Shown here in pieces: positions 33,309 through 35,792 of a stretch of DNA of 64,000 nucleotides. Position numbers and translations under genes: made by a program. Numbering within the stretch: the stretch's first letter is position 1; every line of letters begins with the position of its first letter. This stretch comes from Anaerolineales bacterium (lineage in GTDB: Bacteria; Chloroflexota; Anaerolineae; Anaerolineales; UBA4823): NCBI GenBank assembly GCA_025057645.1, contig JANXBJ010000001.1, positions 1 through 64,000 on the forward strand, in the 5' to 3' direction. The notes beneath the pieces are model-generated. The model worked only from the letters and a program-made list of their open reading frames with translations. It was not told the DNA's origin and did no database searches.

Positions 33309-33491
33309 GTGGCTAAAGACACGCCTGAACCCGAAACCATGGTCCTAGCCGAAACAGATAATTACCTCGCTTGGCAGGCTCAAGAACCTGATGGAGAGAC
33401 TACATACCACCTAGAGCTCAATAATGTGACCTTGCACTTCTTCCAAGAAGAGTGGGATGAGTTCCTTGCCTTAGTGAGGATGCTCAGTTAG
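33309..33491 (+). CDS. Small acidic conserved-looking protein downstream of rho
   Basis: 60 residues starting at GTG 33309, with a strong AGGAGG Shine-Dalgarno and 23 bp after rho. The sequence is acidic and aromatic (NYLAWQAQEPDGETTYHLEL, FFQEEWDEFLALVRML) and looks like a small beta-beta-beta-alpha fold. No signal peptide, membrane helix or Cys. I do not recognise the family. Co-transcription with rho is likely from spacing. Confidence 0.75.
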   Translation: MAKDTPEPETMVLAETDNYLAWQAQEPDGETTYHLELNNVTLHFFQEEWDEFLALVRMLS

Positions 33492-33582: not shown

Positions 33583-34116
33583 TTATAGCTTTTGATCGCA
33601 GAGGAAAGCATAACTGCAGACTCGGCAACGTGCTGCTTCTTGATGGGATCTAGACACGTTGCTGCAGGTTTCTGCTTGCCGCATTTGGTCAAGCAACTCG
33701 AGCAGCTTCCTTTTGCTTTGCTCGTTGAATTCAATCCGGAAGGTGTAGCCCACGTTGTCTCTTGGCAAGCGACTGCGATAATGCAAATATCCGTAACGTG
33801 GCCGCACCTTATAGGTCTCCTCAACCAGCAAGCAGTAGGCGAGCAATTGAAGGGTGTGGGCTTCATAGGGTTGCTGCGGGAGATTGCGGGTAGTTTTGAC
33901 CTCAACCGGGATCCATTCTTTTCCGATGCGAATGAGGTAATCGGGTCGCCCAGCTAGGCGGTAACGCTTAGAGAATAAAGGTGGGGGACGTTGGCCTTCG
34001 TGCAAATCTAGGGCGACAAGTCTTCCCGAAGGTAGCCCGTTCCGGACTCTTTGGCGGTGACCCCACCAAAGCAGCAACAGCGCGACCGCAGCAATCAGGA
34101 TGGAGAGGACGATCAT
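33583..34116 (-). CDS. Membrane-anchored Cas4-like PD-(D/E)XK nuclease, catalytic chain
   Basis: 177 residues. Residues 1-19 are a membrane helix (IVLSILIAAVALLLLWWG). The RecB/Cas4-type nuclease core follows: GRPDYL with Asp59, PVEVKTT with Glu72 and Lys74 (the D...ExK metal site), and QLLAY (Q90, Y94). The C-terminus has Cys151, Cys164, Cys167 and Cys173 (CRVCSYAFLC), resembling the three distal iron-sulphur ligands of Cas4. Cas4's usual N-terminal part with the remaining Cys is absent here but is encoded by the gene 16 bp upstream. No other cas gene or CRISPR array is in the window. A GAGGGAGG Shine-Dalgarno is close to the ATG. Probable role: DNA-end processing at the membrane; unproven. 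Confidence 0.8.
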   Translation of the reverse strand: MIVLSILIAAVALLLLWWGHRQRVRNGLPSGRLVALDLHEGQRPPPLFSKRYRLAGRPDYLIRIGKEWIPVEVKTTRNLPQQPYEAHTLQLLAYCLLVEETYKVRPRYGYLHYRSRLPRDNVGYTFRIEFNEQSKRKLLELLDQMRQAETCSNVSRSHQEAARCRVCSYAFLCDQKL

Positions 34117-34132
34117 GCCTCCCTCTTAGGGC

Positions 34133-34360
34133 CTATCTGGCAAGTTGCCACAATAGAATTGTGGTTGCCAAGAAGAGCAGCAAATAGGCTGCTCGGATTG
34201 TCCATATCGCCTGACGCAGGCGATGGGCGTGGAGGTGGTGAGCCAACTGACCGCTTTCTAGATCGGGTTGGTTTTCACTTGGTATTCCTTGGAGACGATA
34301 CCACCACGCCCGTTGGCAATACCAAAATGAGCTAATCTCTGAGGCCCGAATAATCCGCAT
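34133..34360 (-). CDS. Cas4-like N-terminal segment with membrane helix
   Basis: 75 residues. The start MRIIRASEISSFWYCQRAWWY is the characteristic N-terminus of Cas4/RecB-like Dna2 families, with Cys15 equivalent to the first iron-sulphur ligand, then GQLAHHLHAHRL; a membrane helix occupies 52-73 (IWTIRAAYLLLFLATTILLWQL). It ends 16 bp before the catalytic chain, which starts with its own membrane helix. Together they look like one Cas4-like protein split at a two-helix membrane hairpin. It follows the translin gene by 18 bp. A sequencing frameshift is unlikely because each half has its own start, and the stop and new start fall between two complete helices. Confidence 0.75.
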   Translation of the reverse strand: MRIIRASEISSFWYCQRAWWYRLQGIPSENQPDLESGQLAHHLHAHRLRQAIWTIRAAYLLLFLATTILLWQLAR

Positions 34361-34378: not shown

Positions 34379-35023
34379 TTAGAGAGGAAGGCAGCCATTC
34401 AGCTTTTCTTCGAGCAGCCGCAGGCTTTCTTCTAGTTTTTCATGGCGCAGGCTGAGGGTTAGGTCGCCGCGTGTGCGCTCGATTAGGCTACGGGCAATAT
34501 CGGTCAGGCGCCGCAAACCGCCGGTGATCGCCTCCGGGTAATCCATAGTGACCAGCACGGCGAAGATGTCGTCCATGTAGGTGAGCATCCGCTCTGCCTC
34601 CTGCGTATTCGCAAGACGCAGGGAGTCCAGACAACGCCGGCGTAGTTCCCCGATGGCTTCAGCCATCCCCTTCAGATATGTTGCATACTCCAATTCTAAC
34701 TGTTCGGGGGTAGGCAAATGCCCCTCTCCGGTGAGCGAATAGACGATCACTGCTTCGGCATATTCTTTTAAGGCGTCTTGAGTATAGCCCTCGAAATAAA
34801 TCTCCGGAAAGAGCGCCAGGTTTTGGCGCAGGCTTTTCACCAAAACTGATGCCTTCTCCATTTCCTCCAGAGCGGTTGCTCTTTCTTCGCGATGAATGGC
34901 ACGAATTGCATTGGCGCAATGGCGCGTTAGGGCGCGCGCTTGAGACAAGGCTTCTTCGCGCGCTGCGGTTCGCGAGGCAAACGCAGCGTGGATAGTTTCG
35001 GCGATCTCCTCAAGGTTATCCAT
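34379..35023 (-). CDS. Translin-family protein
   Basis: 214 residues, all-helical. Matches the prokaryotic translin family (COG2178 type): ARALTRHCANAIRAIHREE, GYTQDALKEYAEA, YLKGMAEAIGELRRRCLDSL, MDDIFAVLVTMDYPEAITGGLRR and ARSLIERTRGDLTLSLR. Eukaryotic translin binds ssDNA/RNA, and its partner TRAX supplies an RNase site of acidic residues. Glu87 and Glu90 here (LKEYAEA) correspond to the TRAX Q-EYVEA pair, and Asp151/152 to a further acidic position, so ribonuclease activity is possible. Translin genes are common in archaea and sparse in bacteria. It leads the operon with the two Cas4-like chains; ssb lies upstream on the same strand. Confidence 0.85.
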   Translation of the reverse strand: MDNLEEIAETIHAAFASRTAAREEALSQARALTRHCANAIRAIHREERATALEEMEKASVLVKSLRQNLALFPEIYFEGYTQDALKEYAEAVIVYSLTGEGHLPTPEQLELEYATYLKGMAEAIGELRRRCLDSLRLANTQEAERMLTYMDDIFAVLVTMDYPEAITGGLRRLTDIARSLIERTRGDLTLSLRHEKLEESLRLLEEKLNGCLPL

Positions 35024-35369
35024 GGACTTGCTCTGACCTTATTTAATCTGGAGAGAGGTGAATAGACAGGATAGTTGGTCCGCTAATGAGAGTTCCTTCG
35101 CAGCCGCTTCGTGATCAGCAATATTTTCTACCGGCGCCCGCTGGGATAAGTTGGTCCCAGCGGAGAGACACCGATTCAAGACTAATTAGCGGTTATGCCA
35201 TGCCTAGCAGCATTTGGGCAAGGCTAAAGACGGTTCCTGAGATGAAATGAGCCATAAAGTGGGTGTACTAACCGGCAGACCAGAGACTTCTCAAACTTCG
35301 GTAGGGATGGACAGGCTAGCCTCCTGCTCGGTCACTGCTCTTTGAACCTCTAAAAGAGGATCCTTCGGG
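35024..35369 (-). other. Intergenic region between ssb and translin with hairpins
   Basis: About 346 bases without a supported gene. It contains a perfect 9-bp hairpin (CCGCTGGGA / TCCCAGCGG, 35138-35163) and a smaller CCTCT/AGAGG hairpin just after ssb (near 35347-35359). These could separate ssb transcription from the translin operon. No clear promoter for translin was identified. Confidence 0.5.
35138..35163. repeat. 9-bp perfect hairpin upstream of translin
   Basis: CCGCTGGGA and TCCCAGCGG around an 8-nt loop, with no T-tract. Possibly a processing or termination structure in the ssb-translin spacer. Confidence 0.45.
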
Positions 35370-35792
35370 CTAGAAGGGAATGTCCTCTTCTCCGCCGCTC
35401 TCGAGCTCGCTCAACTCGGTTAGGGGCTCAGTGGCTTCGGTTTCGGCCCGTGGAGACAAGAAGCGAAATGTGCGTGCACTGACCTCGAATGAGGCCGCAA
35501 CTGTGCCGTCTTGACGATTCCAGGTGCGCGGCCCGCCAGTAGAAGCATCTACCACTAGGCGACCCTCTACGAGGACTTTTGCTCCCTTCTTGAGATATTG
35601 ATTGGCCACTTCGGCTTGTTTTCCCCAAACCGAGACGCGAAACCAAATTGTCCGAGAAATGCGTTCACCGGTGCTAGAGGTATAGCTATCATCCACAGCA
35701 ACCGAAAAGGTGGTTACAGCTTGGCCAGTGGGGGTGTAGCGCATCTCGGGATCGCGTCCCAGATTGCCGGCGAGGATAATCGTGTGGTACAT
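35370..35792 (-). CDS. ssb: Single-stranded DNA-binding protein
   Basis: 140 residues. OB-fold with MYHTIILAGNLGRDPEMRYTPTGQAVTTFSVAVDD, GERISRTIWFRVSVWGKQAEVANQYLKKGAKVLVEGRL, then an acidic tail ending GGEEDIPF, the conserved tip that recruits repair and replication proteins. AAGGAG precedes the ATG; TATAAG upstream near 35820-35825 (minus strand) is a plausible -10. No rpsF or rpsR neighbour, so ssb stands alone here. Confidence 0.95.
   Translation of the reverse strand: MYHTIILAGNLGRDPEMRYTPTGQAVTTFSVAVDDSYTSSTGERISRTIWFRVSVWGKQAEVANQYLKKGAKVLVEGRLVVDASTGGPRTWNRQDGTVAASFEVSARTFRFLSPRAETEATEPLTELSELESGGEEDIPF

Follow-up and report, generated by a model that had tools for sequence, protein, structure and literature searches.

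A predicted solo-Cas4-type nuclease divided between two membrane-anchored chains in the Chloroflexota

Known Cas4 proteins and the two-gene locus

The Cas4 proteins of the DUF83 group are single continuous polypeptides of 171–221 amino acids, and the H80A form of one of them, SSO1391, is inactive; the matching histidines, His94 and His62, lie near the metal in known Cas4 proteins (PMC4176176). Likewise, the solved examples, Pcal_0546 (4r5q), SSO0001 (4ic1), a type I-C Cas4 (8d3l) and Cas4/Cas1 (7mi4), are single chains or are fused to Cas1. Homologues encoded outside CRISPR loci, the solo-Cas4 proteins (PF01930/COG1468), have been surveyed by Hudaiberdiev et al. 2017 (PMC5704561); the excerpts of that survey used here describe a solo-Cas4 group that is monophyletic and occurs in many Chloroflexi, and state that short fragments were discarded. 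A search of the open-licence literature returned no description of a membrane-bound or split Cas4. More distant relatives such as EXO5, MGME1, the AdnAB nuclease domain and ACE1 are single chains or are fused to helicases, and to our knowledge none of them has a split or a membrane hairpin. What they (the Argonaute-associated ACE1 being 9iac) have in common with the proteins described here is the RecB-type fold class, with a weak structure match.

The pair described here lies in a 64,000-nt stretch of DNA from an Anaerolineales bacterium, which we call the window, and consists of two minus-strand genes that are separated by 16 nt and read in different frames. The first (34133–34360; 75 amino acids, TAG stop) encodes chain A, an N-terminal Cas4 segment followed by a C-terminal membrane helix; the second (33583–34116; 177 amino acids) encodes chain B, in which an N-terminal membrane helix precedes a RecB/Cas4 nuclease core and three cysteines. 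Directly before the ATG of chain B stands GGGAGG, a Shine-Dalgarno-like element that is B's own (GAGGGAGG, 34118–34125, minus strand). Both reading frames, and every residue that a first-pass annotation had named in them, were found exactly where it had placed them; absent from that annotation was the Cas4 motif-I GxxxH of chain A, of which Gly37 and His41 are invariant.

Specifically, chain A carries Cys15 (codon 34316–34318, minus strand), a predicted Fe-S ligand that aligns with Cys64 of Pcal_0546, and His41 (34238–34240, minus strand), the motif-I histidine, which aligns with His94 of the same protein (PMC4176176). Each is constant in all 55 A chains of the order-level set, and the histidine is apparently lost in a few distant members (e.g. 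L176 and L192). Chain B carries Asp59 of motif II (33940–33942), Glu72-x-Lys74 of motif III (33895–33903), the QhXXY motif Gln90-x3-Tyr94 (33835–33849) and the predicted Fe-S ligands Cys164, Cys167 and Cys173 (33598–33627), all on the minus strand and all constant in 61/61 B chains of that set; Asp59 and Glu72 align with Asp123 and Glu136 of Pcal_0546 (the chain numbering being offset by 3, by our count). The four cysteines of Cas4, one N-terminal and three C-terminal, are thus complete only over both chains, one in A and three in B. The idea, already raised at first pass, of a cluster reaching across two polypeptides gains from the invariance of all four.

Cas4 profiles cover residues 4–51 of chain A, which scores under the cut-offs of PF01930 and TIGR00372 and matches the N-terminal part of both, and a 168-position Cas4 profile is tiled by the two chains, with A over positions 2–47 and B over 51–167. 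Joined in frame, A and B score 84.8 bits against the Cas4 profile, compared with 67.1 for B alone. When a profile of the in-frame read-through pair is set against the solved Cas4 structures, A takes the N-terminus (Cys, GxxxH) and B the remainder; the order of motifs, Cys, GxxxH, Asp, E-x-K, QhXXY and three Cys, is common to both, although in the pair motif I is separated from motif II by about 80 residues, which include two helices, and by a chain break. Because 75 and 177 amino acids in two genes, with a conserved split, do not make the single polypeptide of Cas4, we class the pair as a Cas4-related variant rather than a standard Cas4. It is a Cas4 homologue encoded outside CRISPR loci and, like the solo-Cas4 proteins as excerpted from PMC5704561, it has all the catalytic motifs and four cysteines; those excerpts give four cysteines to each member and mention neither a membrane helix nor a split, whereas here there are two polypeptides and two helices. 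The Chloroflexi solo-Cas4 group of that survey may, judging from the same excerpts, include chain B.

The surroundings of the pair bear on whether it could be a component of CRISPR adaptation, as ordinary Cas4 is. The protein family is the same and cas1 does occur elsewhere in the genome, but no CRISPR-like array was found in the window, the cas1 on the same contig lies about 708 kb away, not beside the pair as in a CRISPR locus, and the other cas1, on another contig, has an ordinary single-chain Cas4 next to it; furthermore, cas1 was not detected in 38 of 63 B-bearing related genomes. Such a role is very improbable, and we reject the pair as a CRISPR partner on the missing array, the distance to cas1 and the relatives without detectable cas1. 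The first-pass remark that no CRISPR locus is present holds for arrays in the window; the genome has cas1 genes elsewhere.

Conservation of the split

A search with chain B found a match in 63 of 81 related genomes, and in 59 of 61 order-level loci a separate A frame lies directly upstream of B. Where measured, the gaps between A and B range between −13 and +87 nt, an overlap is seen in 11 of 56 pairs, and all three frame relations are present. At the level of the class, the B profile is matched in 221 of 296 genomes, and at the level of the phylum in 127 of 301, some of the latter having ordinary Cas4 only. Among 40 further loci with a strong B match in the wider Chloroflexota, A is nearby on the same strand in 34, and in several class-level loci (L142, L146, L152, L159 and L161) a YkuD L,D-transpeptidase-type gene stands between the two. 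In all eight B loci without an adjacent A (six wider and two order-level), A is encoded elsewhere in the genome, in G614 about 0.89 Mb from B on the same contig. Overall, A is present in 10/10 B-bearing genomes tested and was not found in any of 14 genomes without B, counts that are uncorrected for kinship, although the eight genomes in which B has no A beside it span seven families.

These observations allow the simplest objection to be weighed, namely that a local frameshift or nonsense mutation, an assembly error or decay to a pseudogene has broken a single-chain Cas4. The 16-nt interval and the change of frame are what such an accident would leave, but the split is kept in roughly a hundred loci spread over many families, B has its own start and ribosome-binding site, other genes can intervene or A can lie elsewhere in the genome, and both chains are under purifying selection, dN being well under dS wherever dS is estimable. 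Because a separate A occurs in 59/61 loci with varied gaps and all three frame relations, we regard local mutation, and with it read-through or a pseudogene, as ruled out, its probability being negligible; the three frame relations also exclude programmed frameshifting as a general rule. The first-pass annotation had itself named a continuous protein in relatives as the finding that would count against it. What the relatives have instead is a phylum-wide split, with the few continuous forms nested among split ones, and the Cas4-type nuclease in two membrane-anchored chains that it had proposed is upheld by motifs that are invariant over A and B together.

The continuous forms are L185 and L191, in which A, a two-helix middle and B are fused in a single reading frame; their placement among the split forms comes from a quick tree with weak deep support. 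Outside the Chloroflexota, where occurrence is known from plasmid records only, split pairs are found on ~64-kb Bacillus subtilis plasmids, adjoining a type IV DinG-like helicase and Hfq, and on plasmids of the planctomycete family Isosphaeraceae (Singulisphaera and Paludisphaera). Independent of CRISPR genes, the arrangement thus appears to recur throughout one phylum of bacteria and, on plasmids, in two more. On two of the B. subtilis plasmids (L194:342-3663 and L199:5339-8660) the DinG-like helicase, the split pair and Hfq form one apparent operon, near which no other CRISPR type IV gene is annotated. On one planctomycete plasmid (L198:4914-5413) the B copy is broken into two frames near an IS701 transposase gene. 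A viral origin was considered and rejected, as searches of viral contigs and of phage records yielded no relatives.

It is also worth considering that B may be complete alone, with its three cysteines and another ligand, and that A, with its Cas4-like N-terminus, serves separately as a regulator or as an adaptor at the membrane. By itself, B passes the curated cut-off of PF01930 (44 bits against 22.7) and, barely, that of TIGR00372 (65.1 against 65); Fe-S cysteine mutants of Pcal_0546 are still active (PMC4176176), and the two genes can stand far from each other in a genome. Yet B has neither the motif-I histidine nor the nuclease fold's N-terminal segment, and A holds exactly those residues invariant; the two are jointly present or absent in the tested genomes, and natural fusions exist. 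Nor is a further ligand apparent in B, since Cys164, Cys167 and Cys173 are the only invariant cysteines among the 61 B chains. Cys151, which had been suggested at first pass as a substitute for Cys15, must be dropped, its column being mostly other residues (R 20, A 11, K 6, S 5, Q 5, H 4). Self-sufficiency of B is hence unlikely, and the patterns of conservation give strong support to a single enzyme formed by A and B.

We therefore favor, with a probability of roughly 78%, a two-chain, membrane-anchored, CRISPR-independent nuclease of the solo-Cas4 type, with a composite Fe-S cluster and active site, as the best explanation. A and B would be obligate subunits of one Cas4-type (RecB/PD-(D/E)XK, iron-staple) enzyme, probably as a physical heterodimer with nuclease activity. 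Chain A would give one Fe-S cysteine and the motif-I histidine, and chain B three Fe-S cysteines, the Asp, Glu and Lys residues and QhXXY, such that cluster and catalytic center would be complete only once the chains meet. Each chain would bring one helix, and both would interrupt the Cas4 fold at the same place, after the His of motif I and before the Asp of motif II.

Membrane topology and structure models

Both chains contain a strongly hydrophobic segment, as expected from the membrane helices claimed for them at the outset. In chain A it covers about residues 52–71 (34148–34207, minus strand), with a Kyte-Doolittle 19-mer value of 1.88 and a family median of 2.46, and in chain B residues 1–19 (34060–34116, minus strand), with 2.58 and a family median of 2.42. 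Lysine and arginine cluster at the end of each segment that faces the nuclease part (means of 2.8 and 3.2, against 0.4 and 0.2 on the other side). From this bias and the positive-inside rule, we infer that A is oriented N-in/C-out and B N-out/C-in, which would place both nuclease parts in the cytosol.

Two AlphaFold2 models were made, each from four alignment rows and with the natural spacer linking A and B. The joins are weak (pLDDT 57 and 61, pTM 0.46–0.47, with the N-terminal region of A at about 30–50). The top PDB match of both low-confidence models is nonetheless the Cas4 of 7mi4, in a match that spans both chains (Z 9.8 with 135 residues aligned at 4.8 Å; Z 8.9 with 122 aligned at 4.4 Å), and in their fold lists the scores of unrelated helical chains are little lower than that of Cas4. 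The models are consistent with a Cas4 fold laid over both chains; they are not proof of an interface.

Gene neighborhood and possible role

It is informative to examine the pair in light of the genes around it. Directly upstream of A is a translin/TRAX-family gene (34379–35023, minus strand), and beyond it a single-strand DNA-binding protein gene (SSB; 35370–35792, minus strand), a conserved neighbor. The commonest full ordered neighborhood is SSB, DUF3467, translin, A, B, NAD kinase, a B-box/membrane protein and RecN, of which the window holds SSB and translin; over 101 loci, translin is counted in 60, NAD kinase in 50, RecN in 49, SSB in 36 and DUF3467 in 31. Translin is near the pair in 50/61 order-level loci and stays beside A in six loci or genomes where A and B are non-adjacent. 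It was rejected as an obligate partner, however, being present in 12 of 14 genomes without A and B.

Several further features of the locus may be recorded here. The product of 34379–35023 has the archaeal TRAX AfTRAX as its closest solved structure (E 1e-22), and the NCBIfam models that match it are named for the haloacid dehalogenase superfamily. In genus relatives (L035–L037) a DUF3467 gene lies between SSB and translin; the corresponding part of the window (35024–35369) has no intact reading frame of at least 50 amino acids on that strand. A short plus-strand frame (33309–33491) between Rho and the pair has similar frames at the same place in genus relatives and no family match, and no known RNA family was found near the pair.

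The neighbors SSB, translin, NAD kinase and RecN suggest a role in repair or DNA processing, less certain than the rest of our reading, since neighbors indicate association and not function; during repair or recombination, the enzyme may act at the membrane to process single strands or the ends of DNA. Among the roles listed at first pass, chromosome processing is thus favored by the neighborhood, and DNA uptake and phage defense find no specific support. A reading that differs on role only is that the same two-chain enzyme handles incoming DNA at the membrane, in transformation or in blocking plasmids or phages. It would suit the predicted membrane location and the plasmid-borne pairs near a DinG-type helicase or DNA methylases, and a Cas4-like nuclease does limit the transfer or maintenance of plasmid RSF1010 in Synechococcus (PMC10653904). 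On the other hand, the pair is found in most of the class, often within the housekeeping SSB/NAD kinase/RecN neighborhood; ComEC, as a link to competence, is nearly universal and hence uninformative, and some B genomes show none. We consider a role in handling incoming DNA possible but rather doubtful. Somewhat less hesitantly, although still tentatively, we suggest a phylum-wide, two-subunit membrane Cas4, independent of CRISPR, whose active site and Fe-S cluster would form only as the chains meet in the membrane; tethered there, it would act in Chloroflexota as an end-processing nuclease of core repair, with the same split on plasmids of other phyla.

Judged by its sequences, the pair is a new and widespread variant of solo-Cas4, two-chain and apparently membrane-anchored. 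In earlier descriptions a Cas4 protein is one chain; in this pair the fold is interrupted between the catalytic His and Asp, with a predicted membrane helix flanking each side of the break, and the pieces are retained together across the phylum even where their genes are separated. Should the chemistry be borne out, two membrane proteins would together complete an Fe-S cluster and a nuclease center, which could amount to a built-in assembly or localization switch. For work in a tractable host, there is the copy on the B. subtilis plasmid. If the proposal is true, the pair would also provide a clue to what solo-Cas4 proteins do in bacteria, a question that the excerpted Cas4 literature itself raises (PMC5704561).
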